Assembly: GCA_029548805.1 (NCBI GenBank)
Contig: JAKPMS010000148.1
Location: 1-44,746 of the forward strand
Direction: 5' to 3'
DNA: 44,746 nt
Source: Spirochaetota bacterium
Lineage (GTDB): Bacteria; Spirochaetota; Spirochaetia; Treponematales; UBA12059
Below are positions 1,598 to 38,294 of this stretch, piece by piece. Position 1 is the stretch's first letter. The number at the start of each line of letters is the position of its first letter. Under the pieces are notes generated by a model. The model was not told the origin of the DNA and ran no database searches. It worked only from the letters and a program-made list of their open reading frames with translations. Both the position numbers and the translations under genes were made by a program.

Positions 1598-1602
1598 TCC
1601 CT

Positions 1603-3800: not shown

Positions 3801-3827
3801 GCCTAGTAATTTTAATAATTTTAAAAG

Positions 3828-3877: not shown

Positions 3878-3929
3878 TTAAAGTGGCTTGGCAGCGCTTT
3901 TTCTTCAGTTCTGCTGTTCAGCTCCAGGG

Positions 3930-4787: not shown

Positions 4788-4832
4788 GGGCGGGATACTA
4801 GCCCGGCTGTGTATGGTTTGGCAATGCCTTTT

Positions 4833-5501: not shown

Positions 5502-5503
5502 GC

Positions 5504-6325: not shown

Positions 6326-6331
6326 GCAAGA

Positions 6332-6340
6332 TCCTTCCTT
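6332..6340 (-). promoter_or_regulatory. Ribosome binding site deciding the apbC start
   Basis: Read on the minus strand this is AAGGAAGGA, six bases before the ATG at 6325. It argues for the shorter 273-residue protein. Confidence 0.8.
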
Positions 6341-6393
6341 AATTAAAAGCTGCAAAAGGCTGATGTTACCCGGAATCGGTCTATTGCTGCCAG

Positions 6394-6422
6394 ATTATAT
6401 TTTATCAAGGCTAGTTTAACAA
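6394..6422 (-). promoter_or_regulatory. Sigma-70 type promoter for apbC operon
   Basis: On the minus strand TTGTTA (6417-6422) and TATAAT (6394-6399) are separated by exactly 17 bases. Transcription would start near 6387 and give a leader of about 62 bases. A perfect 10-bp palindrome, GGCATATGCC (6445-6454), lies about 20 bases upstream of the -35 and might be a binding site; this is weakly supported. Confidence 0.55.
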
Positions 6423-6478
6423 AGCAAAAATGTTTTGTGAAGCGGGCATATGCCAATATCAACATAAAACAGAAAAAA

Positions 6479-8158: not shown

Positions 8159-8164
8159 ACCAGC

Positions 8165-8192
8165 ATTATATACCAAATAAGCGCAATATGAA
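8165..8192 (-). promoter_or_regulatory. ettA promoter abutting the start codon (possible leaderless mRNA)
   Basis: A perfect TATAAT (8165-8170, minus strand) lies 16 bases after TTCATA (8187-8192). Only six bases separate the -10 from the ATG at 8158, so transcription would begin at or next to the A of the start codon. No ribosome binding site is visible. Confidence 0.5.
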
Positions 8193-8314
8193 GATGACTT
8201 GTTCAAAAATTATGGCAGGGCCGGGAAAAAAAATAAAATTTTGGTTTTTTTTGGTTTAAACTGCAAGCGCTGTTAAAAGCAGCCGCGTTATCACTTTAGA
8301 AAAGGGGTATTGTA

Positions 8315-9487
8315 ATGAAAACAAAACTTGCTGTTTATGCTTTTGCCTTGGCCATCATGCTGTTTCCGTCCTGCCACTCCATGTCTGCAGACAGGAAATA
8401 CGAAGAACTAGTCAATTCCGGCATAAGCGGGGAAAGCTTGCTGGAAGCCATCAAGGACTTTGAAAAGCACAACCACAGGCATTTTCCGTCCAAAGTAGAT
8501 ATAGCCGCCTGCCATATGCTTAAAGGTGAATTCGAGCTGGCACGGGAGTATTTTTCAAGGGCGGAGGCTGTATTGGGCAAGACGGACAACAGTCCCATGA
8601 TACAGCAAAAAATCGGCCTTTTGTACGGCTCTTTGGCCCAACTGGCATTGCGCAAGCAAGATTATGACTCTGCCTTGAGCTATGTGGAAAAAGCAGTGGC
8701 AGTCAATACGGAAAGCCGCAAAAATTATGCATTCCTTAAAGCCCATATTCTTCTAGCAGACAACAAAGCGGAAGATGCTTTGGCCCAGTTTGACTCATCC
8801 TTAATGGAAAACCCCGATGCCTTTGCCCCTCATGATGCCAGAGCATACATGTATTTGCTGGCTATGCACTCAAGGCATGAAGACTGCATCAAAATAATGG
8901 AACAGTATTTTGACCAGTGGCCATACTTTCCCGGACTGGGCCAGTTTGCTTCCAGGGTATACGAAGAACATGGGGACCCGGGTAAAGCAGTGCTGGCTGC
9001 GTATCTGGAGCACGAATACAAGTCGGGAATTTACAAAACAGAGCACGGTGAATTTCTGAAAAGCCTGGATGACTTTTTCTCCAGGCTGCCTGGGCATTCG
9101 GGTTTTGACAAAAAGGCCATAGACAGCCTTAAAGAGGCAGAAAACAGCATTATGCTTGTAAAAAGCCTGTATATGCCTGAAGCAAAAGCTCCTACAAAAA
9201 AGGAAGGAGCCTTTTTTGTTGCGGAATACATAAGGCTTAAACTGAAAATTAAAAACGGACAAATTGACGGGCAGGTTTTTTCGGATTTCTTGGCCCTGGA
9301 AAAATACTTTAACATGTTTCCGGAATATTACTGGAACATCTGGCAGCTTGTGTTGCTGCTGACGCCGGAAACAAAAACGGATTTTCTGCCGCTGCTGGAA
9401 AAAATTATAAGGCTTGCTCCAGAAGGCATTTATGCTCAGGAAGCCTGGCGGGAGATAAGCTTGGCCATTGGATATTCAGCAAAATGA
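8315..9487 (+). CDS. TPR-like lipoprotein, first gene of the RND/giant-protein locus
   Basis: The 390-residue protein starts with a lipoprotein signal peptide whose lipobox-like FPSC places the acylated Cys at residue 20; spirochaete lipoboxes are loose. The rest is largely helical, with repeat-like segments resembling tetratricopeptide repeats (for example ALSYVEKAVAVNTESRKNY and EDALAQFDSSLMENPDAF). Such proteins usually act as periplasmic or outer-membrane scaffolds. AAGGGG lies 8 bases before the ATG. The stop overlaps the next start in ATGA. The 108 bases upstream hold no convincing promoter, only AT-rich sequence. The specific function is unknown. Confidence 0.8.
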   Translation: MKTKLAVYAFALAIMLFPSCHSMSADRKYEELVNSGISGESLLEAIKDFEKHNHRHFPSKVDIAACHMLKGEFELAREYFSRAEAVLGKTDNSPMIQQKIGLLYGSLAQLALRKQDYDSALSYVEKAVAVNTESRKNYAFLKAHILLADNKAEDALAQFDSSLMENPDAFAPHDARAYMYLLAMHSRHEDCIKIMEQYFDQWPYFPGLGQFASRVYEEHGDPGKAVLAAYLEHEYKSGIYKTEHGEFLKSLDDFFSRLPGHSGFDKKAIDSLKEAENSIMLVKSLYMPEAKAPTKKEGAFFVAEYIRLKLKIKNGQIDGQVFSDFLALEKYFNMFPEYYWNIWQLVLLLTPETKTDFLPLLEKIIRLAPEGIYAQEAWREISLAIGYSAK

Positions 9488-10170
9488 AAGCGGCCAAAGC
9501 CCTTTGCGCGCTTAAGGCAACATTGTTGCCGGCTATGCTTTTGGCCTGCCTGTCCTGCACAAATAGCCGGCAGCATTCAGATGGCAGCGCAGAAAAAGTA
9601 TATATAGCTGCCATCAATGCATATGGCTCCGAGGACTATCCAAAAGCCTTGGAATTGGCGCAAAGGGCTTTGAAGATTGACAAAAAGTTTTACCAGGCCC
9701 TCTTTCTTAAAGCCAAAATTCTTTTTTTTGACAACAAAATTGAAGAAGCTTTGCGGGTTTTTTCCCGGCTTGCTGCAAGCATGCCGGCATTTACCGAAGC
9801 CAGGCTATGGCAGATACGCTGCCAGATTTTATGCCAAAATTATGACTTGGCAGAAAAGGCCCTGGAAAAAGAGTTGTCTGTAAACCACAGCGACTGGAGG
9901 GTTTACAGCCTTTATGCCCTTTTGGGCGAAAAAACCGGCAATTACGAACAAAGGCTGGTAATGAACCGCAGGGCAGAAACCATTCTTGCGGATTCCGCCA
10001 AGCTTTATCTGGATCTGGCATTGAGCTGGGAGCTGATGGGCTTAAGTGCGCGCTCTGAAGAGTACATGAAAAAGGCCAGCTGCATCGGAGAGCTTTCTGC
10101 AACAATGGCGGAACTGGAAAAAAGCCTTAAGCAGACCGTGGCAGAAATGCGCAAAGCGGCAGCGCCATGA
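9484..10170 (+). CDS. Second TPR-like lipoprotein
   Basis: The 228-residue protein has a good lipobox, LLAC, with Cys at residue 22. The sequence after about residue 40 is a short TPR-like array (IAAINAYGSEDYPKALELA, then KFYQALFLKAKILFFDNKIE). It may be related to the preceding lipoprotein in architecture, though I cannot align them convincingly. Both ends overlap neighbours by ATGA, so it is translated as part of one polycistronic unit. It is probably an envelope-facing adaptor; the function is inferred only from context. Confidence 0.8.
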   Translation: MKAAKALCALKATLLPAMLLACLSCTNSRQHSDGSAEKVYIAAINAYGSEDYPKALELAQRALKIDKKFYQALFLKAKILFFDNKIEEALRVFSRLAASMPAFTEARLWQIRCQILCQNYDLAEKALEKELSVNHSDWRVYSLYALLGEKTGNYEQRLVMNRRAETILADSAKLYLDLALSWELMGLSARSEEYMKKASCIGELSATMAELEKSLKQTVAEMRKAAAP

Positions 10171-10730
10171 AAAAAATACAGCCTTGCCTTGCTGTTTTGC
10201 TTTTTGTTCCGCTTTTTGTTTCGTGCATGACAGGCCGCATGCATGATGCCTTTTATTCCGCAGACGGGCTTGGCCTGCCGGTGTTTTTCCAAATAGCAAA
10301 CGTGAGTGTACAGCTTGACCATTTAGAGGAGGCCTCCCTGGCAGGACAAGTCAGGACCATGGGAGATACCTTTTTGCTAGCCAGGCAAAATGCTTGCCAT
10401 GAATCTGCCGTTAAATTCTATATTGACATAAGCATAAGCCAGCGCTCATTTACCCAGGGCAGCAACTTTTACAACAGCATTTTTATTGCATGCACGGTCA
10501 GGGACAGTGCGGGCAAAGTGCTGGCGCTGGAGAATGAATGCATAAGCGGCTACAGAAGTATAGAAAACACAAGCTACCTTGGTAAAGCTTTAAGCAGAAT
10601 ACTGAAACGTGTCATTTCTGCTTTTGGCAATGCTAAAAATGCTATTGCATGGCTGGGCGCGCAAAAAGGCAAAACGGAAAAGCTGCATGCGTGCTGCTGG
10701 AAAAACCAGGGTATGCCGCATGCATCGTAA
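10167..10730 (+). CDS. Small lipoprotein of unknown function
   Basis: The 187-residue protein has a lipoprotein signal peptide with FVSC (Cys 20). I do not recognise the mature part. Residues about 30-135 look like a compact mixed alpha/beta domain with beta-prone stretches (FQIANVSVQL, VKFYIDISISQRSF, IFIACTVRD). The last 35 residues are basic and contain two adjacent Cys. It overlaps the previous gene by ATGA and the TolC-like gene by 11 bases. Its position among pump genes suggests an outer-membrane accessory factor, but there is no sequence proof. Confidence 0.7.
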   Translation: MKKIQPCLAVLLFVPLFVSCMTGRMHDAFYSADGLGLPVFFQIANVSVQLDHLEEASLAGQVRTMGDTFLLARQNACHESAVKFYIDISISQRSFTQGSNFYNSIFIACTVRDSAGKVLALENECISGYRSIENTSYLGKALSRILKRVISAFGNAKNAIAWLGAQKGKTEKLHACCWKNQGMPHAS

Positions 10731-12123
10731 AAGGCTGCAAGCATTTGTTGCTGCCGCAATTCTTTTTTTGGCCATGCCAGAAGCAGCCATTGGAGAAAGC
10801 TCCCTGATAATATTTGATACAGCGGATGCGGCTGTGGACTTTGGTGTAAAAAGGTCGCAGCTTTACAAGCTGCAAAGGCAAAGCATGCTGGAAACCATGG
10901 CTGCTGCCAAAAAGGCCTATCATAACTTTTTGCCCGTTTTAGGAATAAGCTTTTCCGAGTCTGATACCGTAAATATGCTTTCTGCCGACTCAAGGACAAA
11001 AATGCTCCAGTTTTCCGTAACACATAGCCTGTATGACGGAGGCAGGAAGAAGCAGGCTTATGAGGCAGGAAAAATCTATGCCCTTTATGCTTACCAGGAA
11101 TATGAAAACCAGCTTTGCAGCTATAAATCCGAAATTGCCAACCTGTATCGTGCCATAGTAATGCAGCAAGAAATGCTGCTAATAAAAAATAAGCTTTTTT
11201 CCATAGCTGCTGCCCAGCTGGCAATAATGGAAAAAGAGGTAGAGCTGGGTTTTGCACTGGAAACGGATTATCTGGAATACAAAATATCCTTTATTCAGAT
11301 AGAAGAAGAAAAAGAGCAGCTTGAGCGGGATACAAAAAACTTGAAACTAAAGCTGGCGTATATGCTTGAATTGCCGGAAAGCCAGGAGCTGCTTGTAAGC
11401 GGTCAATCCGGGCTGGAAAAAGCCCGCCTTATTTACGAGCCCAAACTGGAACAGATCTGGAAACTGGCAAAAGCCGCCAGCACTGAATTAAAAAAACGGG
11501 AATACGACTTTGTTTCCATGCAAAAAAGCGCAGAACTGGACAGGCGCTGGTACCTGCCAAACATCAGCCTGGTCGGCACGCTTGCTTTCAGCGGAAACGC
11601 ATATCCCCTGACAGAGCCAAAGTATAGCCTAAAGCTTACATTTGATTTTGACAAGCCTGCCGGCTTTCCTTTTAGTATGGATAGCAGCAGCTCTTTTGAC
11701 GGCAAACGCATTAACAGTATAAGCAATTCCATGAATGCTTCCATAAAGCCCCCATTGGGCATAGCCAGCCAAAAGCGGCAGGCCAGCCTGCAGGCAATAC
11801 AGGGGCTTATGCAAATATCGGCCTATGAGCGGGAATTAAAATCAAAAGTCAGGGACCTGGTTATAGCACATGACAATACCGTAAGGATGATAGAAAGCAG
11901 CCGCAAAACCATTGAGCTGATGGAGAAACGCTTGGAGTTTACAGAGCTACAGCTAGCAGCCGGAGAAATAAAGCAAATAGATTACCTAAAAAACCTGGAG
12001 GAGCTTGCCAAGATGAAAGTAGCACTTTTTGAGCTGGAAGCCAAGGAAGACAACCTGGAGCAAAGCCTGGAAATACTGGCTTTTCTTCCGTTTGGAGAAC
12101 TTAAAAATGTATGCTCAATGTAA
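10720..12123 (+). CDS. TolC-family outer membrane efflux protein
   Basis: TolC-type proteins form trimeric outer-membrane channels for tripartite pumps. The ATG at 10720 gives a clean Sec signal peptide (MHRKRLQAF, a hydrophobic core, then EAAIG/E); a longer frame from 10609 would bury the signal. The mature part is two long helical repeats with the family motif FSVTHSLYDGGRKKQAYEAG in the first half. The second repeat (from about residue 240) has LVGTLAFSGNAYPL and LTFDFDKPAGFPF strands before the last coiled coil. Length (467 residues) is normal. It overlaps the MFP gene by 17 bases, so pump assembly is co-translated. Confidence 0.85.
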   Translation: MHRKRLQAFVAAAILFLAMPEAAIGESSLIIFDTADAAVDFGVKRSQLYKLQRQSMLETMAAAKKAYHNFLPVLGISFSESDTVNMLSADSRTKMLQFSVTHSLYDGGRKKQAYEAGKIYALYAYQEYENQLCSYKSEIANLYRAIVMQQEMLLIKNKLFSIAAAQLAIMEKEVELGFALETDYLEYKISFIQIEEEKEQLERDTKNLKLKLAYMLELPESQELLVSGQSGLEKARLIYEPKLEQIWKLAKAASTELKKREYDFVSMQKSAELDRRWYLPNISLVGTLAFSGNAYPLTEPKYSLKLTFDFDKPAGFPFSMDSSSSFDGKRINSISNSMNASIKPPLGIASQKRQASLQAIQGLMQISAYERELKSKVRDLVIAHDNTVRMIESSRKTIELMEKRLEFTELQLAAGEIKQIDYLKNLEELAKMKVALFELEAKEDNLEQSLEILAFLPFGELKNVCSM

Positions 12124-13462
12124 AATTTATATAACTGCCTTGTTATGCATGCTTGCCTGTCTTTGCGCCTGCCCGAGTTACAGGGCCTATGAGGCTGCTG
12201 ATGCGCCAAAGCCGGATTTTAGTCTGGTCCAGGCCAGCAACAAAAAGTTTGACAATGATTTGGCATGCTTTGGAAGTATAGCCATCAGGACAAAAAATGA
12301 TATTACAGTCAGGGTGCAGGGCATTATAAACAATGTTTTTGTAAAGGAAGGAAGCCTTGTCACAGCAGGGCAGGCCATAGCAAGCCTTCAGAATGTACAG
12401 CTGGAAATACAGAAGGAACAGTATGAAAATGCGCTAAGGTCCGGAAGAGCAGCATTGGCCATGGCAGAGGCCAGGCTGGAGGAAGCCAGCTTGGCGGTTG
12501 AAGGCCGCTATATTGCCATGGATAAAAAGCGCCTGGAACTTGAACAGCTTGAGCTGGAACTTGCGGAAGAGCAGGAAATACTTAAAAGCAAAAAGGATCT
12601 GTACGAACTTGGCGGAATTACAGAAGCAGCTTACAGAAATTTGCAATTGTCCCGCGCCGCAAAAGAAGCAGGCATAAGCATTTTAAAAAAGGAAATGGAA
12701 ATAAGCGAGCTTGGCTTAAGGGACATAGACCTTTTGAATGCCGGCCTGGAAATACCAGAGGATTATGCCAAAAAAAAACGCGCAATAATTTTGCTTAACA
12801 CAAGGAGTGCGGAGGCCGAACTGGTATCGGCCAGGGCCGCTTTGGCCAATGCCGAAAAAAGCCTTGATTCCATCATGCGGCTTATTTCCGATCTTACCGT
12901 CAGGTCTGCAACAAACGGGACAATAGCTGCCATTTATTTCCAGAAAGGGGAGCATGTTTCGGAATATGAAAAGCTGGCTACAGTAATGGACAGCTCAAGG
13001 CTGTTTGCAATATTTTATATACAGGAAGAAGATATAACAGGGTTCGAGATTGGCAGCCCCATGACAATCGAAATACCCTCCCTTAAAAAAACGATACATT
13101 CGGAGCTGGAAGAGATATCCCCCCTGGCGGACCCCCAAAGCGGCAATTTTATTGTCAAGGCAGTTTTGGAAAACGCCGACCTGTCCATAAAACCTGGCAT
13201 GTTTGCAAAATGTGTAATACCCAGAAAAAACGAAGAATATTACCCTGTCATTCCGGAAAGCGCCCTGGTAAAAGTGGGCAATTCCGAGGGAAGCGTGTTC
13301 TGCGCAAGCAATGGTTTTGCCGTTTTAAAAACCGTACAGCTGTTTGCAATAAAGGACGGATTCGCATGGATCAAAAACGGTTTGTCAGAAGGAGAAACCC
13401 TTGTTGACAAGCCATCGCCTTTTTTAAAGGAAGGAGAAAAAATTTATTGCAATGAAAAATAA
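12107..13462 (+). CDS. RND-type membrane fusion protein (periplasmic adaptor lipoprotein)
   Basis: Membrane fusion proteins link an RND permease to TolC. The ATG at 12107 has GGAG eight bases upstream and gives a lipoprotein-type signal with LCAC (Cys 22). After it come a lipoyl-like half (VRVQGIINNVFVKEGSLVTAGQAIASLQ), a long coiled-coil hairpin (about residues 95-260), the second lipoyl half (SATNGTIAAIYFQKGEHV), and beta-barrel and membrane-proximal domains (PVIPESALVKVGN). The order is that of AcrA/HlyD-type RND adaptors. The 451-residue length is a little longer than AcrA, mostly in the coiled coil. It overlaps the genes on both sides. Confidence 0.85.
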   Translation: MYAQCKIYITALLCMLACLCACPSYRAYEAADAPKPDFSLVQASNKKFDNDLACFGSIAIRTKNDITVRVQGIINNVFVKEGSLVTAGQAIASLQNVQLEIQKEQYENALRSGRAALAMAEARLEEASLAVEGRYIAMDKKRLELEQLELELAEEQEILKSKKDLYELGGITEAAYRNLQLSRAAKEAGISILKKEMEISELGLRDIDLLNAGLEIPEDYAKKKRAIILLNTRSAEAELVSARAALANAEKSLDSIMRLISDLTVRSATNGTIAAIYFQKGEHVSEYEKLATVMDSSRLFAIFYIQEEDITGFEIGSPMTIEIPSLKKTIHSELEEISPLADPQSGNFIVKAVLENADLSIKPGMFAKCVIPRKNEEYYPVIPESALVKVGNSEGSVFCASNGFAVLKTVQLFAIKDGFAWIKNGLSEGETLVDKPSPFLKEGEKIYCNEK

Positions 13463-14867
13463 ACTGGGTTCATGCTGCAAGCTTCTTTTGGCATTGTTCA
13501 TTATTGTCCTGCCGGTTAGCGCCTGCTCAATACTTAGCTGGGAAGCATTTGAAATATTTTGTTCGGTAAACGAAAAAGACGAGTATTACCAGGCAGATAC
13601 AATCATTCTGGATTTCTCCATTTTGCCGGACAAAAAAAGCATGGAAGAAAAGGCAAGCCTGCTGTCAAACAACCTGGCTGTGAACACAAAAAAGTGCTGG
13701 CATGGCAATTCATTGCATTTATGTCCGGTGGGTTCCTGGCAAAAGGGGCAAACTTACAAGCTGATCATTGATGGCTCGGTAAAAATGAATGACGGACGCA
13801 TTTACAATAGCGGCCTGTTCAGGGCTTTTTGTTACGGAGAGCCTGGCAACGAGTTCACGCTAAAAGACAGCTTTTGGCAAGAAGATTCCCTTACCCTTTG
13901 TTTTTCCAAACCGGTATCCATAAGCTCATTCCGGGAAAAATTCAGCCTGCAGCCTTATTTGGATTGCCAATACACATATTCGGAAGATCTTATGAGCGTC
14001 AACGTAAAGCCCAAAACCAAATGCCGGCCAAATGTCCATTACAAATGGAGGCTGGCCGATATGGTTTCATCCGACGGCTATCTTATGAAACGGGAATATA
14101 CAGGAATGATTTCCGGGATCATGGATTCCGAAATTCCGGAATTGCTTTCTGTATGCCCCGTGGACTATTCGGCTGCAGGGTCGTTATGGTATTACGGGCT
14201 GGAGCTGGACGGCAATTTGTATGAATGGCAGGCTGCTGGGTTTTCTTTTTCAAAAGCCATGGATGCGGAAAGTGTCAAAACCGGGATCAGTTTTGTGCCG
14301 TCCATACAGGGCTATTTGGTCAAAGAAGATGACAAGCATTTCATTTTTATTCCTGATGGCAGCTATGAACCCAAAAAGGAATACCGCCTGAATGTTTCAA
14401 AAACAATAAGGGACAGCTCGGGGCTAAATCTGCATGATGATAGCGTCATCCTTTTTGAGACAGCCAATGATTACCTGAATATAACTTCCATCATGCTGGA
14501 CGACAAGGAAGTGGCGGTACAGGCCGATGTGGACATATACGAACATGTACTTCAGCCTTCAGGCCGCATTTCTGCCTGTATAAGTTTTTCCACACAAATA
14601 CCCCGAGCAAAGCAGAGTGCGGCACTGGCATGCATTTCATGCAATGCCTACTTTCCCGCAGAAGCAGCCAACCCGGCGCTGATTTCCGCAAGTTGGTCAG
14701 ACCCTCCATTTTGCATCCATTTGACCTGGGAAGGATTTTCCAAAAGCACTCCAGGCATAGCCAAGTATTATAAACTGGGTATCAGGGGCGGAAAATCCGG
14801 AATTTGCAACATGGCAGGAGAATACCTAAAGGAGGATCAATGCATTATCATAAAGCTTGCGCAATGA
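13452..14867 (+). CDS. Ig-like (Big_5/SbsA-type) lipoprotein A
   Basis: The 471-residue protein has a lipobox VSAC (Cys 25). The mature part seems to be built of bacterial Ig-like domains of the Big_5 kind, with repeated segments of the form FSKAMDAESVKTGISFVP followed by KKEYRLNVSKTIRDSSGLNL. At least three such units can be counted (from about residues 45, 140 and 250). Such domains are common in surface and S-layer proteins and act as spacers or adhesins. It overlaps the MFP gene by 11 bases and the next gene by 28. It resembles the next gene in architecture, suggesting an old duplication. Confidence 0.72.
   Translation: MKNKLGSCCKLLLALFIIVLPVSACSILSWEAFEIFCSVNEKDEYYQADTIILDFSILPDKKSMEEKASLLSNNLAVNTKKCWHGNSLHLCPVGSWQKGQTYKLIIDGSVKMNDGRIYNSGLFRAFCYGEPGNEFTLKDSFWQEDSLTLCFSKPVSISSFREKFSLQPYLDCQYTYSEDLMSVNVKPKTKCRPNVHYKWRLADMVSSDGYLMKREYTGMISGIMDSEIPELLSVCPVDYSAAGSLWYYGLELDGNLYEWQAAGFSFSKAMDAESVKTGISFVPSIQGYLVKEDDKHFIFIPDGSYEPKKEYRLNVSKTIRDSSGLNLHDDSVILFETANDYLNITSIMLDDKEVAVQADVDIYEHVLQPSGRISACISFSTQIPRAKQSAALACISCNAYFPAEAANPALISASWSDPPFCIHLTWEGFSKSTPGIAKYYKLGIRGGKSGICNMAGEYLKEDQCIIIKLAQ
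14829..14835 (+). promoter_or_regulatory. Strong internal ribosome binding site
   Basis: AAGGAGG lies four bases before the ATG at 14840, inside the end of the preceding gene. It decides the start of Ig-like lipoprotein B over an in-frame ATG at 14804. Confidence 0.8.
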
Positions 14868-16330
14868 CAGCCCTATTGCTTTTTTCCTGCGGATCCTGGA
14901 TATTCCCGCCGCTGGAGGTCTTGTCGATTGAAACCGGACAGGATATATCCATTCTTTTTTCTTCCAGGCCGTCAGCTATATCCATAAAAAAGGCCATGTC
15001 GGTAAACAGGGATGGAACCCAGATAAGCGGGCAATTTCTTTTTAATGACAGACTGCTGCGCTTTGTACCATTTGACGGACTGCCTGCTGGCCATGAATAC
15101 TCAGTGCTTATCAGCACTGCAGCAGAAGACGAAAAGGGCAATTCCCTGCTGGAAAATTTCAGCTACCATTTCAATACCAAGACGGATACTAAAGCCCCAA
15201 AAGTAATAAGCGTATATCCAGAGGACGGGCATAGCCTGGATGACAAGCTGGAAGAAATAAGAGTGGAATTTTCCAAAGCTGTTGATACGCTGTCTTTTAT
15301 GGATGCAATCCAGATCAATCCCGCAATGGAATACATATCCAAATGGTCTGGCAACGATACAATCGTCAGTCTTGTTCCAGCCCATCCGCCAGCCTTGGGC
15401 ACCCGTTATTTTATTAGCCTTTCTGAAGCTCTGCGCGACAAAAACAAAAATTGCCTGGAAGAAGCGTTCAGCTCAAGCTTCCTGTACGGAACGGATACAA
15501 CAGCTCCGGAATTGTGCCTTAGCTGGAGTTCATCCGAATTTAATGCAGTTCCGCTTGCTGACGGCTGCAGGAATTCGGGCATAGCTTCCGATGCGGAAAT
15601 ACTGTTTGCATTCAACGAGCCTGTAGCCATTGATGCAATAGCCGGGCTGGTGGAAATTCAGCCGGGCATTTCGTATTCGCTGCTTTTGGACCATAAAACC
15701 AAAAAGGAAGCCAAGCTTGTGTTTGCAAAAAGGCCGGAATGGAACAGGGAGTACCTCCTGAAGCTTTCTGCTGGAGCAAGCGACCTGTCAGGCAACAAAA
15801 TGCGGAACGAATTGTCCTTCAAGCTGCTTTTTGACTCTGAGGCATTTAGACCCGTGGTCTTTGAAGGCGGCTTTCTGCTAAACGGCATTGACAATTGGGT
15901 GGAAATAAACAGGGATACGGAATTTTCGGACATTTTGCTGGATGCGTCAGTTTTTCAGCCGGCAGCCGGAATCGGCCAGCCAACAAAACTGTTCATGGTT
16001 TTCAGGATATCCGAATGCGCAAATGCTTTGTCCCTTGTGGCTGCAATGAACGCCATAAAAGTATCATCCACCAATGCCTGCGTGGACATATCCGTAAAGG
16101 CAATTAGAATTTTGTTGCGTGAAGAATACGAGCTGTTGGAAGTGTACGGATTTGTTCCGGACAATCCTGTTGGTACGGAAGGCGGGAAGCTGTCTGTTGC
16201 CGAACTGGATCTGGAGCTAGGAAATTCATGCAGGCAGGGTTTTGTAATTTTTTCAATAGATAACACACTAAAGGATACGCTGGGCAATGCCATGACAGAA
16301 TCCTGCGTGTTGACATACAACAAGTATTGA
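14840..16330 (+). CDS. Ig-like (Big_5/SbsA-type) lipoprotein B
   Basis: The 496-residue protein begins with a short lipoprotein signal and LFSC (Cys 17). Several Big_5-like domains follow; the clearest runs from about residue 115 with VISVYPEDGHSLDDKLEEIRV, then FSKAVD, and ends in a LRDKNKNCLEE turn. Another has LFAFNEPVAIDAIAG and ASDLSGNKMRNE. The last 120 residues differ and contain VFRISECANAL and a strand-rich tail. The protein is likely exported to the envelope. It is the second of two tandem genes with this architecture, immediately before the two RND genes, and could be a structural part or substrate of that machinery. Confidence 0.72.
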   Translation: MHYHKACAMTALLLFSCGSWIFPPLEVLSIETGQDISILFSSRPSAISIKKAMSVNRDGTQISGQFLFNDRLLRFVPFDGLPAGHEYSVLISTAAEDEKGNSLLENFSYHFNTKTDTKAPKVISVYPEDGHSLDDKLEEIRVEFSKAVDTLSFMDAIQINPAMEYISKWSGNDTIVSLVPAHPPALGTRYFISLSEALRDKNKNCLEEAFSSSFLYGTDTTAPELCLSWSSSEFNAVPLADGCRNSGIASDAEILFAFNEPVAIDAIAGLVEIQPGISYSLLLDHKTKKEAKLVFAKRPEWNREYLLKLSAGASDLSGNKMRNELSFKLLFDSEAFRPVVFEGGFLLNGIDNWVEINRDTEFSDILLDASVFQPAAGIGQPTKLFMVFRISECANALSLVAAMNAIKVSSTNACVDISVKAIRILLREEYELLEVYGFVPDNPVGTEGGKLSVAELDLELGNSCRQGFVIFSIDNTLKDTLGNAMTESCVLTYNKY

Positions 16331-16332
16331 AA

Positions 16333-22214: not shown

Positions 22215-22293
22215 GAACCCAGCCCGGCAAGCGCATTTAAAAGGCTTTTGATTTTGCCCGTTTTTTAACTTTAATCAAATTTTGGCACATATT

Positions 22294-22299
22294 GGGAGG
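22294..22299 (+). promoter_or_regulatory. Ribosome binding site of the giant gene
   Basis: GGGAGG lies six bases before the ATG at 22306. It selects the start that gives a proper signal peptide. The 91-base gap (22215-22305) has a T-run at 22260-22266 but no convincing terminator stem, so the gene may be read from the upstream operon. Confidence 0.75.
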
Positions 22300-22305
22300 T
22301 TGTCC

Positions 22306-25300: not shown

Positions 25301-28300
25301 TGGTTTCAAAATTGGCAAGGCAGGAAAATGTACTTGGGCTGCTTTCAAGCGCTTTGGCATGGAGCAAGTACCATGACGAAATGGAAGCCTCCGGCTATCT
25401 GCAGGCTTTGAGAACAAAAAAAATAATGGATGCCTATGCTAATCTTTGCCTGCCGCAAATAAACCAAAACGGCAACAGCTGTTATGACGAGCTGTCAAGG
25501 CTGGTGGAGTCGGAATGGCAAAATGTATTAAATATGGCCAGCTATAATTCGGAAGCTGAAGCTTTTATACAAAAGCTTAGAAATGCGGGAGACGGGCTGG
25601 CTGAAGCCGGAAAGCAGGCATTGGAATTCTGTATCCAGGGCATTATAGAATATTTGGCAGTAAACGATTTTTACATGGACAGAGAAACTATAGGCCAAAA
25701 AATAGAAAGCAACATGCAATACTATGATGATATTTCTTCCTTGTACAATAAATATACCTGCATGCCTTATGATATATACAACTTGCACAGCCTTGTGGAA
25801 TTGATGGGGGATAAGGAATACAAGGCTTTAGAAAAGGGAGAAAAAGGAGCTTTCCAAAAATCTGCTGCCATCCTTATAATGCTTGAACTGGGAGAAAATG
25901 CGCTTTCCGAATGCCGCTCTATAGAAGACTATGATAGTCTGATTGGCAATAGAGGTTTTACATGGCTGGATTCGTACTTGAGTCTTGATGCAGAAGACAG
26001 GCTGGCCATATTGGACAGCATGGCGGAAATTCACAAAAATTCGGAAAAGGACAAGGCTTTTGACAGCTATGCGGAATGGCACAAGAAGCTTGCAGTTATA
26101 AAAACGGCTGAAGAAAGCATAAACCTGGAAGAAGAATATGCAGGCAATGAAAAAATAAAAGCGTTTTATTCCGCACAAAAATTCCTGGCGGCGTACCGGG
26201 ATTTAATACTGGAACTGGAATATGCAGACAAAAACCATGCAGCTTTATATTTGGAAGCATTTATTAATACAAAGCGATATGAAGACATAGACAGTCTTGC
26301 AAATTGCGCCGGGCCTTGGATCAATGAATTATTGGATACCCTGAACAAGAACTCTGACACTTGCTGCAAACTGGATGAGCTGTTGCTTGTTTTTCTGGCG
26401 GAAGGAAATGATATTCCCGAATCTTTTGAAAGGCTTTTTGAACATTTAAAAAACCTTGCAATTGCGCAGTCAAGTGATCCAGAACAGCAAGCTTATTGGC
26501 AGGGAGCCTGGCTTGATTTGCCTTCTGTAAAACAAAAGCTTGCCATTCTGGAAGCTGATTACGGAGCCTGGCTAAAAAATACCAGACAGGAAGAATTCAA
26601 TACCTTGGCAGCAGAAAACAATTGGCAAGCTTTTGCCGAAGAACTGGCTAATGGCTGTTTTGGCATTGTTTCAAGCGAGTTTCTTCCGTTTTATCTGGCC
26701 GGCAAGGAGCTGTTTTATATTTATTTGTCAAGCCCAGAAGGCTATTGTCATTTGGAGCTTTTATTGCCGCTGCTGGATAACATGGACAGGGAAGCATATA
26801 AAAAACTGGAAAGCTATTATTTGAAAAAAAGGTACACTGAAGCCTACTCTGCTATGGCAGACGGAGACATTTCCGAATGGCTGTTGGGGTATTCCGATGG
26901 AACAGCGGAAACCATGATGAATTCCGGCCCAAGAAAACTGTTAAGCCATGATGAAATTTGCTCGGTGTTTGACAGCCTAAGCTACGGACTGGATATTAGC
27001 GGCTTGGAATATTTTAGAAAAAATGAACAGGAAAGGCTTTTTTCCAACAATTGCGAGTTGTTGAATCTGGTTTTGCTGGGCAACAGAAACAGGATGAATG
27101 CCATAATAGAAACAAAAATTGCGGACTATGCAGAAAAATGCCAGAAAGCTGCCGACCGCATGCAATACGCTCTTTTTCTTGAGCATGAAGCTGATAATGA
27201 CCGTTCTGCGTGGATGCGTGAACTGTCCAAGCATTTGACAAAGGACAATGTACATAACGCAATTGCTTTTGATGATGATGCCTTCCTGGCCTCACTTTTG
27301 CTGGCAAAAGAAGCCAATACTGAAAAAATTATATTGGAAAACGTACTTAAACAGGCAGTAACCAAAAAAATGGTATTGCTGGAAAATGCATTTCTTTTTG
27401 CCTTGCCCGGCATAAATAATCCCGAAAACAATCCTGGCAGCAAAGCCTGTCTGGAAAGCATGCTAGCTTCCAGAGAAGAATTCTTTAAAACCGGCAGTTC
27501 GGAATGGTTTGTTAGAAAAGCAATCGGAAGCAATGTAGATATGTTAAGAATTAAAACCTTGTCCAAGACCCAGCTTGAAGAAGAATTCCAAAATGCCAAT
27601 GACAGTTTGACAGAAAAAATTCTGGATTTGGAAAATTATTATTCAGAGCAATTTTTGCCAATAAGCGAAGCAGCCAGCAGGAAGTACTTGTCCTACAATG
27701 CTGAAGTAGACAGATGCAAGCTCTTGTATGACTCTATGAGGCTAGCAAGGCTTGAGTTCAGAAAGATGCAGGAAATCAACGAGTGGGCAGAAAGCATTTA
27801 TCTAAAGGATTTTGGAAGCAACCTTTCAGAAAACCACAAAAGCCCAAAAGAAAGGCATAACGAAACCATATACAGTTATGAAAGGTCAAAATGCGCATTG
27901 CAAGTTTTGGAGGCTTTGCTTTCCAGTAGCTCTCAGGGAACCAATTTGGAATACAGCCTTTTAATGGACGCATACAAAAATGCGGACAACTCATATTATA
28001 TGGGCAGGGTAGTGGAGTTTGACGCAAAAAACCTGATTGCAATGCAGGAAACAAGACTAAAAGAGGCTGAACAGGATGAATACAATGCAAGAATAGTGCT
28101 GGTTTCCGGGCCGGACAAGTTTATGGCTGTACAGCAAAAGCATAATGATCTTGTAATGGTAGAAAAAACGGGTGAAGGAAAGTTCAGGCTGAACCTGGCT
28201 TACGAACTGGACGGCTCAGGCTTGATAAATATTTACGATACAAGATCAGACGAAAACGCTTTTAACGAATACTTCAATTTTTATGACCAGGAAAGCGGCA

Positions 28301-31300
28301 TTCAGGGCATAAATAAAAAGCTTAGCATGGCAGAGCATGATGCCATGGAATGGCTTGACAATATGCACAGCAAAGGAAGGCCGTATTATGAAGAATTGCT
28401 GCTGGCCGGCCTTTACCTGAAAAGCATGGGAAGCGAGGAAGACAGACAGGCATGGTTCAGTGGGGAGGCGGATCCCAATTTTCAGGGTGGTTCAGGGGCT
28501 TATAACCTTGGACATATCCCTTTAAGCCAGAGTTTTCATTCAGAAGATATTGCAGGCTTGTTTTTAAATGCACGCTTTGAAGTAATGAAGGCTGCCTACA
28601 AAGGGCTTGTGTCATCAGGCAATGGCAAGAATGACCTTGCTTGCTACCTGTTGTTCAGGGAGTACAAGCTGGTTGGCAATTTTCCAGAAGAAGAAAAACT
28701 GATTCTGGAAACCAGGGCCATTGACAAAATATGCCAGGACCTCAACAAAAGCAAAAAACAGAATATTGTTGCGGGATCAAACGCGATTGGGCTGGGCTTT
28801 GCGCTTACAATGGCAGCCATACCGTTTAACCTTTATCTGCTAATCCCGGCTGCTGCCGCCTATATATTGGGAGGGACCTTTTTACACAAGGCTTCAGCTA
28901 TTAGTGAAGCCATTACCGACCTAGAAGCTGTAAAAGACGGCAAAGATAAAATACTGGCCGACAAGAAAACGCTTTTTGACAAGAATTACGAAAACTGGCT
29001 GACCAAACGGGATAGGCTTGCAAAGGAACAAAAGGAGCTGAACAAATTGCTGTACGGCTCCGAACAAGCAAGCCTGAATGGCCAGGGAGGGACGGCAAGC
29101 ATTATAAGTTATGAAGTATTCATAGACGGGGTAGAAGAAACGCTCCGAAGCGGGGTCTCCGGAATTGGCAGGGCCGAAATTTTGAAGCTGTTTGACAAAA
29201 AGAGTTTTGATGAAACAGTCTTCGGAAAGGCCTTTACAATAACGGCTTGCCTGGAGCTATGCAACCAAAAATTTGAGGCAGCCAGAACGGATGCTTTTTA
29301 TGAATTGCAGGCAGAAAAACAGAAGCTAGCAAGTTTGCAGTCGGAAGCGGCCAAAAATTTTTATGACAGGGTGAATGAAAATTTGTTGATGGACAAAGAG
29401 CTAGAAAAGCAATTGCATAAACTTGCAATGGAAGCGGCAAATCCCGAAAAAAATGTTGCTGAACGCAAGCTTGCCGCCAGGCAATATGACGAACTTTTTT
29501 CATGCTCAGTTTTTGTCCAAAGCGAATTGGAGCATGAGTTGTACGAACTTGCCAAAGCTGCATGGGGAGAAGCCTGCTGGAACAGTGCGTGGAATGATTC
29601 ATCCATTATTATGCATGATACCAGTATGATAAACAGCTTTGCCCGGTACTCGCGCCAAAGCGAGCCTTTTATCCTGGACAAACAGCATGATCTCTTGGAT
29701 GCAATAATATCGGCCATGCAAAACGCGGAGGCAATTCGCCTGGAAACAATAGGAAAGGAATGCGAATTGCTCAGGCTGGACTTTGACAGGCAATACTCTG
29801 CCTGGGATGCCCAGCTTTTGGAAATACAAAACCTGGCTGCAAAAGAATGGGATGCCGCCAGGGGCAAATTCAACAGGTCTTACAATAACTGGAGAAGCCA
29901 ATTCGAAGATGAATACAAAGACATAACTGCGGAATGGCAAGAAAGCTATCAGGAATTTTCAGAAGCAAAAATGCAATGGATAGACAGCCAGTATCTGTAT
30001 GCGGCCAATGCCGGCAATTCTGGTTTGTTGGAACAAAGTACTGCCGATATCGAGCTTGCCATAGGCAAGGCCATGGCCAAAACTGCAAGAAAAATCATGG
30101 GTACAAAAGAAGGCTTGCAGTCGGCGGAATATGTGGCAAAGCTTCTTGCGGATACCAGGCTGCACGCTTTAATGGCCCATGCGGCCAACTTTGCTTCGCT
30201 GGAAAATTTTGCGGCACTGCCGTTACAGTATGTGCAAAAACGCCATAGCGCAGCAGAAAGCATGGCATTGGCCCAGGCAGTTATAATGGACATAAACAAG
30301 GACATGCGGCAAGCAGCCGCAAAGCTTGCTGCTGAGCAGGCAAACAACCTGCTAGAAGAAACCCAAAGGCTTTTCTTTGAACGCCTGGAGCAGGAAAACA
30401 AAAGCATGTGGGATTGGGAAAGAAGCCTGGTGCTAAACAGCGGCTACAGCATTGCCAACGAGATAAGCCGTTCAGCAGTTGTAGCCTCTACTGTCTTTGG
30501 TGCAGTCAGGGACAGGCAGACTGTGCATTTTTACCGCTACTTTTATGCAGACAGCCCTGAAATGGCTGTAAGGCTGGATGCGGCAGCTGTTGATGGCCTG
30601 GATGCATCAGTTGTAATGCATATGGTTTATGCGGCACAAAATGATATGACCGCATGGGCACAAAAAATATTCGGATCGGCAGACGGAAAAGGCCAGGCAA
30701 CCCAGCTGTACATACCAAGGTTGACGCTGGAAAATTCCGATGCATGGAGCTATGCCCTGGAACAACAAGCTCTAAAAAGCGACAAAAAATCCGAACGCTT
30801 TGTGCAGCTCCAGGACAAAATGAAAAACAGCTCTTATGACTCGCTTAGCGTGGCAGAGAAGGACGAGTATGCAAAATTAAGCAGGGAAATTGCCAGTGTA
30901 CGGGAAGGAGAGTTTGGCAAGCATATAGGTTATGCACCCGTGTTTAAAAATTGCATGGACTTTGAAAAAAGCCGTTCCTTCAATGTGGAAGATGAAGGAT
31001 ACGGACAAATGGGTCTGATTCTTCTTGATTTCCAGTGGAATGAAATGCTGGCTGCTTATGGTTATGCCGAACTGGCAAGGCCGATGTATGACCAAAAAAT
31101 GTGGATGGAAGGCGCTGTCCCGGGTTTTGCTGCCCCAAGCGTAAGGGATGTAGTGGCAATAGCTTCAGAAATTATAGGCAGCGTCACAGGACAGAAGTGG
31201 TTAAGCTATGCAGACGAGCTGTTGTTTGCCGGACTGGATTTGGGAGGCGGATACAGAACTCCGGAAGAAGTAGGAATGCAGCTTGCAAAAAAGGTATTGT

Positions 31301-33396
31301 CAGAAATTTCCGGCAGCGCTCTGGGGTTTGCAACAGGCAAGCTGGGAAACATGCTGGGAAACGCATTGTCGGAAAGCAGCAAGGCAATTAACTTTTTGGT
31401 TCAGACCGAACTGTCCGTCACAGCTGCTTTTACCGGCGCGGCAATGAACAATTATATAGCAGCCATGGACCTAGGCCGTTTGGGCAGCGCGGAATGGATG
31501 GACTGGAATGCTGTAAAAGCGGGCTGGTCCGGAAGCGGAATAATCAGCTCCGCTTTGCAGGCGGGCATAAGCGGCGGGCTTGCTGGCATTAACCTGCGTG
31601 ATGCCAATGGTTACAGCCTTGCGGCCAGCACTTTCAATACAAGGGATATCCAAAGCCTCAATTATCTTGCAGGAGCCATGGGCGGGAGCGCTTTGAGCCT
31701 GCTCATGACAGGAAACGCAAGCTTCAACCTTGCCAGCATTCATGGGGTGGGTGTTCTGGAAGTAAACATGGGCATAGACGGGATAAACGGGAAGCTTGGA
31801 ACCGGAGGAACAAATATAAGTTATCAAAAAATAATGTCCGCAGCCGGCGGCTTAAGGGAATCTTCTAAACTTATGGACTGGAAATACGGCGGACTTGAAA
31901 CATCAAGCACTCTTAATGCAATAAATATGTTGTCGTATACACAAAGCGCCTTGAACAGGCAAATAGCCGGAGATATATGGAAAGGCAAGCAAAATCATGT
32001 GTATGCCTGCACTGAAGGATATGGCGAATACGATATTGACAAAGACAACATAAGCCTGAACATGAATTTGCTTGGCAAAGGGAAGGAGGCCAGTGCAAAG
32101 CTGGCAACAGTTTTGGCGCACGAAGGCACTCATGCCAGCGGAATCCGCATTGAAGGCCTGGCTCATTTGCAGGGCTTTGGCACCTATAACGAGCTGCAAA
32201 GCTGCTTCCGGCTGGATGCGGATATGGCTTTCAAAGATGCAATGCTGCGGGCAATAAAAAATCCGGAACATTGGACAGAAAACTCTGGAAATATTGACTA
32301 CTGGAAGTTGATGGAAGACGGCAGCCTTTTGTTTGACAAGGACGGATGGCTAAAGGATTCCAAAGGCAACTTTATTGTGGATGCCAAAAACAAGCGTATC
32401 GGAGATGATACTATTGAAGGAGGCTTGCTAAAAATTCTTGGTCTTGACGACAACAAAAAAAACAGGGCTTTTGTATATGCCATGCTGGAAAGAACGGGAA
32501 TGACAGAGAAAGAAAAGGATATTTGGTGGAAGCACGAAGGCAATGAAGGCATGTTTATAAGCCTGGAAGACAAAGAATACAAACCCTTCTATGATAGCCT
32601 GCTTACGGAACATAATACCCTCAATATTTATAATGCTCTTGTGGCCAATGGCAGCATGGATTTGAACCCTACTTATGTTGAAGCCAACTCAAAGTGGTGG
32701 ATCAGGGGTTTGAATGCACTGGGCCTGGACAAAATTTCAGGGCAGTTTGTCCCAGAAGGCAAATACATCAGTTACGAGCAATACAAGGCCAACAATTTTA
32801 TACAAGGCTTGCCTGTGGTAAACGAATCCATGCCCGCCAAACTTGGCAGCATGATAAACACCATGTTTGGCGCAAGCGGAGACAAGTTTCTGCACAGGGG
32901 TTTGGACTTCCTGGTATTGAAGGAGGATGTATTCCCGATTTTTGTAAACGACACGACCATAGCCAAAGTATTTTTCGGGGACGAATATGCAACTACAGCC
33001 CAGGGCCATCATGTAGACCTGTTGACAAAAGTTAGCTATACCTTCAAGGGGCAGGAACGAACGGACACCATAGTACAGCGTATGCTGCACCTTGACAGCG
33101 TTGCTGTAAGCAATGAGCAAAATATTGCAAACACAATAATACTGGGCAAATCAGGAAACAGCGGCTATTGGAACGGAGATTATGGGTATCACCTGCACAC
33201 AGATTTGTATACCGGCAACACCGGCAGTCCCTGGCTGAATTATGTTGGCAGCCAGGCGCAACAAAATATTACAGGGGCAAATGGCATCAAGGACCCTTAT
33301 ACGTATAAAAACGACAAAAACGTATATTACGACCCTATGATATTTTTATACAAATATGAATATGGAGTAAGCGCGGATGCGTACAAATATTTCTAG
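22306..33396 (+). CDS. Giant secreted protein with tryptophan ladders, TIGR04388-like block, HEXXH motif and C-terminal M23 peptidase domain
   Basis: The 3696-residue protein begins with a Sec signal peptide (MKTGFKKFIASILLLSH, then ILPAQ). Residues about 30-2700 are mostly helical, Glu/Lys-rich and coiled-coil-like. Trp residues 295, 310, 324, 339, 353, 368 and again 2500, 2515, 2529, 2544, 2558 alternate at 14 and 15 residues. A hydrophobic hairpin-like stretch lies at about 2153-2195. Residues about 2820-3060, with GYGQMGLILLDFQWNEM and ELARPMYDQKMW, resemble from memory the large spirochaete family TIGR04388. An HEGTH site follows at 3272-3276. Residues about 3526-3640 look like an M23 metallopeptidase: HRGLD (H3530, D3534), LHLDS (H3595) and YHLHTD (H3629, H3631). 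Cell-wall cleavage is inferred from the M23 motifs; the export route is unknown. By eye the gene looks AT-richer than its flanks. Confidence 0.85.
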   Translation: MKTGFKKFIASILLLSHFASILPAQDMAFELNQGRISLVKFLERASMESSQEKWQRLAESALLAAMNAWESSSLYLKESGEESYKEKRCLAETVYKEETDKSYIQWAVNKYLQEKAEFERSALGEALRNAANDWLYFDERRPDGSRQVDAADFETAKMQWAGKTDKIAEEYISDFANKKLVALSELISRFRSSGLKEDMYMEILEACNNSYSGLITSECRRIAFMEQNRLMMDLMYDQKSLKRMNASEAAGFIAGEMAREAELATEEATKKLFASLNTFMEAGEHENIDLDINGWLEQFRMVFEEGLRKWEKAECVFLATRADWEREAQEVYLKNEKTWMDAYAELNKKQYNWEKEFLAQIDRAQEEWQQKRESLSEEIRAVRDEFLKASEESRKSKETMLKIQMEIYDKSRSMMANASQGMKSWYMIWASKYKITFNYWQAQNEKPGHEGMEGHLKNLEGQNGIFYLEQALAEPDLDELFKNGHEGISKLREVMASWKDAYLGMLIDLYNKVCSSLLEEISGSNPSANKEQKTVLYEKLLAKQGVITGLNADMEALAIEQSFELIRSAIGNANFENLFRGSLVFDRALWNSSFVMLDKNTGWLKIASNYQQQAAAAIENIYLLSGLNAAKMDMWDKESFDYKNELEAECIKARAVLKYWEEELYVISALDDYVQNNSSLLESASATKLDLQNARNGYLDSLAVYKSTVAGLSEKGLELDYANEALSNARSVLDNLRVAADTARDEYCFFLSRLKEVETDVLVESTVKLLYSLQNLWAENVGETASIQNAMLAYLCDLHAYEQAVKQDALQEQVRYLVYGNSNYPDTVDACSIEELEALQSRMGLMQEWTIEAIAANVSVFYPDDLQTEKLLLKAMCAAYSENLPFLQSAEKAGLELGIRQLWALSAAYYKNKIEERNEALGYIRGHDLYAMDEYSMRVLNTRCWLYGQQLGIINEFDNSGMQKPELIDLKNKITELLAINNNQDFMKQLGILRDSDQLVSKLARQENVLGLLSSALAWSKYHDEMEASGYLQALRTKKIMDAYANLCLPQINQNGNSCYDELSRLVESEWQNVLNMASYNSEAEAFIQKLRNAGDGLAEAGKQALEFCIQGIIEYLAVNDFYMDRETIGQKIESNMQYYDDISSLYNKYTCMPYDIYNLHSLVELMGDKEYKALEKGEKGAFQKSAAILIMLELGENALSECRSIEDYDSLIGNRGFTWLDSYLSLDAEDRLAILDSMAEIHKNSEKDKAFDSYAEWHKKLAVIKTAEESINLEEEYAGNEKIKAFYSAQKFLAAYRDLILELEYADKNHAALYLEAFINTKRYEDIDSLANCAGPWINELLDTLNKNSDTCCKLDELLLVFLAEGNDIPESFERLFEHLKNLAIAQSSDPEQQAYWQGAWLDLPSVKQKLAILEADYGAWLKNTRQEEFNTLAAENNWQAFAEELANGCFGIVSSEFLPFYLAGKELFYIYLSSPEGYCHLELLLPLLDNMDREAYKKLESYYLKKRYTEAYSAMADGDISEWLLGYSDGTAETMMNSGPRKLLSHDEICSVFDSLSYGLDISGLEYFRKNEQERLFSNNCELLNLVLLGNRNRMNAIIETKIADYAEKCQKAADRMQYALFLEHEADNDRSAWMRELSKHLTKDNVHNAIAFDDDAFLASLLLAKEANTEKIILENVLKQAVTKKMVLLENAFLFALPGINNPENNPGSKACLESMLASREEFFKTGSSEWFVRKAIGSNVDMLRIKTLSKTQLEEEFQNANDSLTEKILDLENYYSEQFLPISEAASRKYLSYNAEVDRCKLLYDSMRLARLEFRKMQEINEWAESIYLKDFGSNLSENHKSPKERHNETIYSYERSKCALQVLEALLSSSSQGTNLEYSLLMDAYKNADNSYYMGRVVEFDAKNLIAMQETRLKEAEQDEYNARIVLVSGPDKFMAVQQKHNDLVMVEKTGEGKFRLNLAYELDGSGLINIYDTRSDENAFNEYFNFYDQESGIQGINKKLSMAEHDAMEWLDNMHSKGRPYYEELLLAGLYLKSMGSEEDRQAWFSGEADPNFQGGSGAYNLGHIPLSQSFHSEDIAGLFLNARFEVMKAAYKGLVSSGNGKNDLACYLLFREYKLVGNFPEEEKLILETRAIDKICQDLNKSKKQNIVAGSNAIGLGFALTMAAIPFNLYLLIPAAAAYILGGTFLHKASAISEAITDLEAVKDGKDKILADKKTLFDKNYENWLTKRDRLAKEQKELNKLLYGSEQASLNGQGGTASIISYEVFIDGVEETLRSGVSGIGRAEILKLFDKKSFDETVFGKAFTITACLELCNQKFEAARTDAFYELQAEKQKLASLQSEAAKNFYDRVNENLLMDKELEKQLHKLAMEAANPEKNVAERKLAARQYDELFSCSVFVQSELEHELYELAKAAWGEACWNSAWNDSSIIMHDTSMINSFARYSRQSEPFILDKQHDLLDAIISAMQNAEAIRLETIGKECELLRLDFDRQYSAWDAQLLEIQNLAAKEWDAARGKFNRSYNNWRSQFEDEYKDITAEWQESYQEFSEAKMQWIDSQYLYAANAGNSGLLEQSTADIELAIGKAMAKTARKIMGTKEGLQSAEYVAKLLADTRLHALMAHAANFASLENFAALPLQYVQKRHSAAESMALAQAVIMDINKDMRQAAAKLAAEQANNLLEETQRLFFERLEQENKSMWDWERSLVLNSGYSIANEISRSAVVASTVFGAVRDRQTVHFYRYFYADSPEMAVRLDAAAVDGLDASVVMHMVYAAQNDMTAWAQKIFGSADGKGQATQLYIPRLTLENSDAWSYALEQQALKSDKKSERFVQLQDKMKNSSYDSLSVAEKDEYAKLSREIASVREGEFGKHIGYAPVFKNCMDFEKSRSFNVEDEGYGQMGLILLDFQWNEMLAAYGYAELARPMYDQKMWMEGAVPGFAAPSVRDVVAIASEIIGSVTGQKWLSYADELLFAGLDLGGGYRTPEEVGMQLAKKVLSEISGSALGFATGKLGNMLGNALSESSKAINFLVQTELSVTAAFTGAAMNNYIAAMDLGRLGSAEWMDWNAVKAGWSGSGIISSALQAGISGGLAGINLRDANGYSLAASTFNTRDIQSLNYLAGAMGGSALSLLMTGNASFNLASIHGVGVLEVNMGIDGINGKLGTGGTNISYQKIMSAAGGLRESSKLMDWKYGGLETSSTLNAINMLSYTQSALNRQIAGDIWKGKQNHVYACTEGYGEYDIDKDNISLNMNLLGKGKEASAKLATVLAHEGTHASGIRIEGLAHLQGFGTYNELQSCFRLDADMAFKDAMLRAIKNPEHWTENSGNIDYWKLMEDGSLLFDKDGWLKDSKGNFIVDAKNKRIGDDTIEGGLLKILGLDDNKKNRAFVYAMLERTGMTEKEKDIWWKHEGNEGMFISLEDKEYKPFYDSLLTEHNTLNIYNALVANGSMDLNPTYVEANSKWWIRGLNALGLDKISGQFVPEGKYISYEQYKANNFIQGLPVVNESMPAKLGSMINTMFGASGDKFLHRGLDFLVLKEDVFPIFVNDTTIAKVFFGDEYATTAQGHHVDLLTKVSYTFKGQERTDTIVQRMLHLDSVAVSNEQNIANTIILGKSGNSGYWNGDYGYHLHTDLYTGNTGSPWLNYVGSQAQQNITGANGIKDPYTYKNDKNVYYDPMIFLYKYEYGVSADAYKYF

Positions 33397-38256: not shown

Positions 38257-38294
38257 TCTGAAACCGGGGGCAAAAACTCAAAAGGGGTAGAAGG

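Follow-up and report, generated by a model that had tools for sequence, protein, structure and literature searches.

We describe here a ten-gene locus (positions 8315-33396) in a stretch of 44,746 nucleotides, called the window below, from a Spirochaetota bacterium of the order Treponematales (assembly GCA_029548805.1, contig JAKPMS010000148.1). Nine of the genes encode a tripartite pump of the resistance-nodulation-division (RND) type together with lipoproteins, and the tenth encodes a giant protein of 3,696 residues. We consider it probable that the locus encodes a polymorphic toxin directed against other bacteria, equipped with an RND-type export machine of its own, and that the system is similar to contact-dependent growth inhibition (CDI). 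The initial annotation of this DNA had not recognised what kind of protein the giant is; comparison with its relatives points to a polymorphic toxin with interchangeable wall-hydrolase tips and candidate immunity genes, and not to a surface protein of unknown role.

The giant protein and its exchangeable tips

What kind of protein is the giant? We conclude that it is very probably a polymorphic toxin, in which one chassis carries swappable C-terminal tips. Most of its length is a long helix-rich stalk, which is followed by a conserved pre-tip core and then by a tip of ~200-300 residues, and signal peptides are present on the giants. Between two strains of Treponema parvum, segments of the giant are 79-100% identical over ~2,850 residues, the identity falling to only 13-19% in the last 300, and the genes downstream differ as well. 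In the giant of the window, conservation drops to nothing past residue ~3,420. When 55 tips were compared (phmmer, E<1e-3) they fell into 25 clusters; 48 of the 53 chassis segments formed a single one. The tip clusters are perhaps over-merged where the tail includes chassis, as with the two T. parvum tips, which cluster together, and perhaps over-split where distant homologues were missed. The N-terminal chassis of the giants is thus constant and their C-terminal domains can be exchanged, and toxin cassettes are also found standing alone. Arrays of short genes consisting of core and tip, mostly followed by a neighbour gene, are present in five loci (L031, L059, L061, L107 and L108). Tip swapping, cassettes and downstream secreted genes are the features by which polymorphic toxin systems are defined (Zhang et al. 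2012, PMC3482391).

All Pfam matches of the tips at E<1e-3 are to families which are, or resemble, peptidoglycan-cleaving enzymes. Peptidase_M23 matches eight tips, and the remaining matches are to N-acetylmuramidase (2e-27), M15_4 (2e-12), NlpC/P60 (1e-6), CHAP (1e-4) and Peptidase_C39_2 (1e-7), the last being a family broader than wall enzymes; NCBIfam adds MepM, Pgp3, ShyC and RipC. One group of tips has an H...SxGC motif and seems, at the level of this motif, to be L,D-transpeptidase-like (YkuD-like). Neither its profile nor that of the C39-like tips, a group likewise assigned by motif, found anything significant among PDB sequences. In the tip of the window the M23 motifs HxGxD and HxH align with those of relatives, and a four-sequence profile matched M23 endopeptidases in the PDB, including ShyA (4e-5), zoocin A and, weakly, lysostaphin. 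Of 27 giants, 7 have an HExxH motif ahead of the tip; most giants have none.

The remainder of the protein resembles nothing in the collections that we searched. No Pfam or NCBIfam model matches the chassis, a model of the pre-tip core (pLDDT 66) found no PDB fold at E<=0.001, and the giant has no meaningful match in NCBIfam, PHROGs or PADLOC, so that a known defence gene was rejected on the last of these. TIGR04388, a family of Leptospira giants, did not match the giant, and no paper on it was found. Could the giant be a tape-measure-like phage protein, or another prophage protein, with a wall hydrolase at its tip? The likeness in architecture is superficial: both kinds of protein are long and helical and end in a wall hydrolase. 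The signal peptides and the gene context, with no phage genes around the giant, contradict it, as does the lack of a PHROGs match for two giants, and we give this explanation next to no chance.

Genes downstream of the toxins

A secreted or lipid-anchored gene on the same strand follows the toxin gene within 250 bases in 36 of 54 cases, against 39 of 350 (11%) in the background (p=1e-17); secretion was called by a home-made signal-peptide rule, the stricter version of which passes 19% of background open reading frames (the first version passed 50%). The neighbours belong to varied families (SH3_3, LRR, FGE-like, ankyrin) or to none. Their position, secretion signals and family diversity are the reasons why we take them for candidate immunity proteins, and it is very probable, judging from these comparisons, that giant and neighbour are toxin and immunity protein. 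After one M23-tipped giant the secreted neighbour (L056:18382-18996) resembles that very tip, and it is possibly an inactive M23 mimic which serves as the immunity protein. Two further candidate immunity proteins (L045:17134-18048 and L052:157-1071) have a formylglycine-generating-enzyme-like (FGE-sulfatase) domain and a signal peptide, a fold unusual for such a role.

The same tips and neighbours could also be read in another way, with the giants serving the producer itself in adhesion or in remodelling of its wall, tips that fit the chemistry of its own wall, and neighbours that are regulators or chaperones. All identified tips are indeed wall enzymes, and several giants, including that of the window, have no candidate immunity gene. 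An arms race is, however, the better explanation for the sudden change of tip from one T. parvum strain to the other, for the cassette arrays and for the varied secreted neighbours, and we consider the wall-remodelling explanation improbable.

Co-occurrence of the giant and the pump

The association of giant and pump was studied in 197 Treponematales genomes, the order to which the window belongs, with three markers: the giant core (A1), a profile of the Ig-like lipoprotein BigA as the marker of the pump (A2), and an N-terminal segment of the giant (A3), which marks full-length giants better than A1, the orphan cassettes carrying the core too. A1 was found in 63 genomes, A2 in 62 and both in 55. 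A3 was found in 56 genomes, 55 of which have the pump lipoprotein; conversely, 55 of the 62 pump-bearing genomes have the A3 segment, leaving seven with a pump and no giant. The initial annotation had proposed one specialised system, with its refutation to be sought in giants without pumps, or pumps without giants, in most relatives. This pattern was not seen (1 of 56 and 7 of 62), and the unlinked pairs described below also speak for a single system. The assembly of the lone genome with a giant and no pump (G171) is 90% complete and broken into 380 contigs. Among the genomes with a pump only, a secreted protein with a weak match to the giant's N-terminus directly follows RND B at a contig end in G030 (L071), and in G153 the contig edge falls inside RND A. 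In G175, a 97% complete Treponema genome with the whole pump operon (L072), an AddA-like helicase gene lies in the slot of the giant.

In one genus (g22, Treponema, which includes both T. parvum strains) giant and pump are both present in 13 genomes and both absent from at least seven, and a single genome has a pump and no giant, which suggests that the two are acquired or lost jointly. The two lie less than 30 kb apart in 37 of the 55 genomes, on the same strand in 34 and on opposite strands in three. They are unlinked in at least six genomes (G017, G040, G136, G148, G169 and G193), where the giant is found on a different locus or contig from the pump and has no pump genes next to it; since both are kept there nonetheless, the co-occurrence is more than linkage. 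Fisher's test gave p = 9e-40, which overstates the evidence because the genomes are related, and we give more weight to the pattern within the genus and to the unlinked cases. We are highly confident that pump and giant are one functional unit.

The order of the genes is also kept across many spirochaete genera, as the initial annotation had suggested looking for. In loci L031-L070 the arrangement TPR-TPR-lipoprotein-TolC-adaptor-BigA-BigB-RND A-RND B-giant is conserved at ~22-45% identity, and the same order recurs across many genera of the Treponematales, so the array is not due to chance. It has to be asked, nevertheless, if the pump operon could be an ordinary drug or metal efflux system with an unrelated giant as its neighbour, given that efflux pumps are built from proteins of the same RND, adaptor and TolC families. 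The order kept in so many genera and the co-occurrence even without linkage leave this explanation a very small chance, and the chance neighbourhood of a drug pump was ruled out on the co-occurrence.

In a sample of 297 Spirochaetota genomes from the whole phylum, the giant core was found in 45 and BigA in 66. In other families and classes the composition of the pump is kept with some change of gene order, and giants reach at least 4,785 residues. A scan of named genomes with a narrower alignment gave 20 loci; among the named carriers are T. parvum ATCC 700773, Candidatus Treponema merdequi and Candidatus Treponema scatequi, besides further metagenome-assembled genomes of Treponema. Plasmid records had no match to the core. 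In one locus (L039:9527-10324) a convergent lipoprotein, whose C-terminal part looks by eye peptidoglycan-binding-like, lies between RND B and the 3' end of the giant.

Organization of the locus in the window

The ten open reading frames are all intact and lie on the + strand where the initial annotation had placed them, the first nine head to tail. The features are:

8315..9487, + strand: TPR lipoprotein 1 (TPR matches in Pfam; positional homologues in L051, L052 and L073)
9484..10170, + strand: TPR lipoprotein 2 (TPR_19, 8e-11), conserved more widely than TPR lipoprotein 1
10167..10730, + strand: small lipoprotein of no known family (no Pfam or NCBIfam match; position kept)
10720..12123, + strand: TolC-type outer membrane factor (OEP, 2e-20, Pfam)
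12107..13462, + strand: RND-type periplasmic adaptor with a lipobox-like N-terminus (RND_mfp TIGR01730, 2e-44, above cut-off)
13452..14867, + strand: BigA, Ig-like lipoprotein with Big_5 (1e-12)
14840..16330, + strand: BigB, Ig-like lipoprotein with Big_5 (3e-22, three stretches)
16327..19293, + strand: RND permease A (ACR_tran, 5e-134; aligned to CmeB)
19281..22214, + strand: RND permease B, more diverged (ACR_tran, 3e-76; aligned to a solved RND efflux permease)
22306..33396, + strand: giant, very probably a polymorphic toxin, 3,696 aa, with an N-terminal signal peptide (start ATG 22306)
23023..23565, + strand: conserved N-terminal chassis segment, aa 240-420 of the giant (alignment A3)
29686..31905, + strand: conserved pre-tip core, aa 2461-3200 of the giant (alignment A1; conservation profile)
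32119..32133, + strand: HEGTH (HExxH) motif of the giant, possibly of a processing peptidase (motif)
32566..33393, + strand: variable C-terminal tip of the giant, M23/LytM-type endopeptidase by profile (HRGLD at aa 3530, HLH at aa 3629-3631; PDB profile matches)

For TolC we preferred the start ATG 10720 over GTG 10609. If RND A starts at TTG 16327, the nine genes of the pump set overlap by ~4-28 bases at each junction; the overlaps described by the initial annotation therefore stand, and the one exception that it made disappears. In the 91-base gap between RND B and the giant there is no terminator-like site. The slot of the small lipoprotein is often filled by a 150-200 aa open reading frame in relatives. 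The giant is present in a single copy in the genome of the window.

All parts of a tripartite RND pump are encoded, namely RND permease, adaptor and TolC-type factor (Pfam, NCBIfam), and the two different permeases, the TolC and the adaptor of the initial annotation are borne out by ACR_tran, OEP and HlyD_D23 (the adaptor matches the last at 2e-23 in Pfam). That annotation had counted five lipoproteins; the two Ig-like and the two TPR-like ones are there, and with the adaptor, included by its N-terminus, the set has six. In alignments to solved permeases, RND A and RND B both retain the first Asp of transmembrane segment 4 (TM4), and in both the second TM4 Asp and the TM10 Lys of AcrB are substituted. 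As one membrane Asp is kept in both, proton coupling is possible. RND A also has weak SecD/SecF matches in NCBIfam. Other RND permease genes are present elsewhere in the genome, so the pump of this locus is not its sole one.

How could the giant leave the cell?

We propose the following course of events. The giant, having a signal peptide, would cross the inner membrane by Sec. From the periplasm, it or its stalk would be carried to the outside by a proton-driven machine of RND A/B, adaptor, Big_5 and TPR lipoproteins and TolC. RND cargo comes from the periplasm, so for a giant exported by Sec a machine of this type is more suitable than a type I system. The tip, wall-cutting by comparison with known families, would then reach the periplasm of a competing diderm cell and cut the peptidoglycan there, perhaps after being freed by the HExxH domain through self-processing in some members. 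In most loci the downstream secreted or lipid-anchored protein would guard the producer's own wall. Export by the pump is the weakest step of this proposal, and we put the chances that the pump is the exit route of the giant at about even. The balance is similar for the wider suggestion that the Spirochaetota have a new type of protein secretion, in which a proton-driven two-subunit RND/TolC machine with Ig-like and TPR lipoproteins moves or displays Sec-exported giants tipped with peptidoglycan hydrolases.

Several observations weigh against the proposal as a whole. The narrow path of AcrB-type pumps is an obstacle for a large protein, and we know of no large protein which passes any RND pump. 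In G175 no giant adjoins the pump, and in two loci (L107 in G299 and L108 in G349) arrays of toxin-core cassettes with neighbours occur with the BigA marker undetected. About half of the tips have no assigned family. The initial annotation's description of the giant as peptidase-like holds for M23 when the four-sequence profile is compared with the PDB; taken singly, the tip of the window is weak in Pfam, with E=0.015 for the whole giant, which is below the cut-off, and 7e-4 for the last 300 aa alone, and its predicted structure (pLDDT 35) leaves the fold unconfirmed. By the signal-peptide rule described above, the expected secreted neighbour is missing after 18 of the 54 toxins. The giant of the window has no downstream immunity gene, a convergent polyprenyl-synthase gene following 16 bases on, and a search of its genome with a single candidate query found no immunity homologue save the M23 tip itself.

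Is it possible that the giant is a polymorphic toxin which leaves by another route, and that the RND set supports it by exporting a lipid or small molecule for the stalk, by clearing wall fragments or by supplying energy for assembly? Transport of small molecules is the known job of RND pumps, and both the unlinked pairs and the lone pump of G175 would fit such an indirect role. Yet the locus has no other outer membrane exporter gene, the TolC and adaptor set is the sole outer-membrane path encoded with the giant, and their co-occurrence is near-obligatory; we therefore find a separate route unlikely, although it is the alternative to which we give most weight.

Comparison with known systems

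The locus resembles CDI most in its layout. In CDI (CdiA/CdiB/CdiI, type Vb) a giant toxin with a variable C-terminus is followed by an immunity gene, and orphan cassettes occur (PMC9086364, PMC7644211). Both systems have a secreted giant of at least ~3,000 residues, a variable C-terminal toxin (~250 residues in CDI), a downstream immunity gene, a candidate one in the spirochaetes, and orphan cassettes. In contrast to CDI, the spirochaete loci have the RND, adaptor and TolC set and no gene for a CdiB-type transporter, their chassis has no Pfam or NCBIfam model, and the identified tips are wall hydrolases. No CdiB/TpsB gene lies beside the toxin in the window or in neighbouring loci, and a search of 12 carriers for PF03865, made without a positive control, gave no match. 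The spirochaete system is not CDI, though laid out like it.

With polymorphic toxin systems in general it shares the constant N-terminal part, exchangeable C-terminal toxins, downstream genes in the place of immunity genes and cassette arrays. The portion of Zhang et al. (2012, PMC3482391) considered here lists NlpC/P60 wall-cleaving toxins and, among the trafficking modes it covers, does not mention RND.

Among pumps, MdtBC is a known heterotrimer of two RND permeases (PMC8277102). MdtABC-TolC, of the HAE-1 RND type, likewise has two different permeases encoded with an adaptor and TolC; the spirochaete set differs in its Big_5 and TPR lipoproteins, its linked giant and the replaced second TM4 Asp and Lys of AcrB. 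A periplasmic polypeptide, enterotoxin II, is exported by the tripartite pump MacAB-TolC (PMC8277102). This pump, however, is driven by an ABC protein and its cargo is small. SecDF is a protein of the RND superfamily which acts on polypeptides by means of the proton gradient. It differs in acting at the inner membrane, with no TolC or adaptor.

We found no published description of the chassis, of its exporter partner or of a toxin family whose identified tips are all wall hydrolases in the open-access literature. The polymorphic toxin is already known as a kind; chassis and exporter partner are undescribed in the literature found, and their distribution was searched within the Spirochaetota. 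If the proposal is correct, spirochaetes own a family of wall-aimed antibacterial weapons, and RND pumps, known as exporters of drugs and metals, have been adapted to the export of proteins of ~300-500 kDa. Some very long spirochaete genes that lack annotation, among them those of the oral species T. parvum, would thereby gain a function. How could so large a protein pass an RND/TolC conduit?

Other genes of the window

Read from the sequence, the upstream part of the window (1-8206) contains housekeeping genes, including a glycine dehydrogenase subunit and an indolepyruvate oxidoreductase pair, together with genes for a DMT-type transporter, an Mrp-type ATPase and an EttA-like ABC-F protein. 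Beyond the giant locus, positions 34883-42761 appear to hold a compact chemotaxis cluster, which comprises CheA, a methyl-accepting-type protein, CheY, CheW, a chemoreceptor, CheR and CheB.
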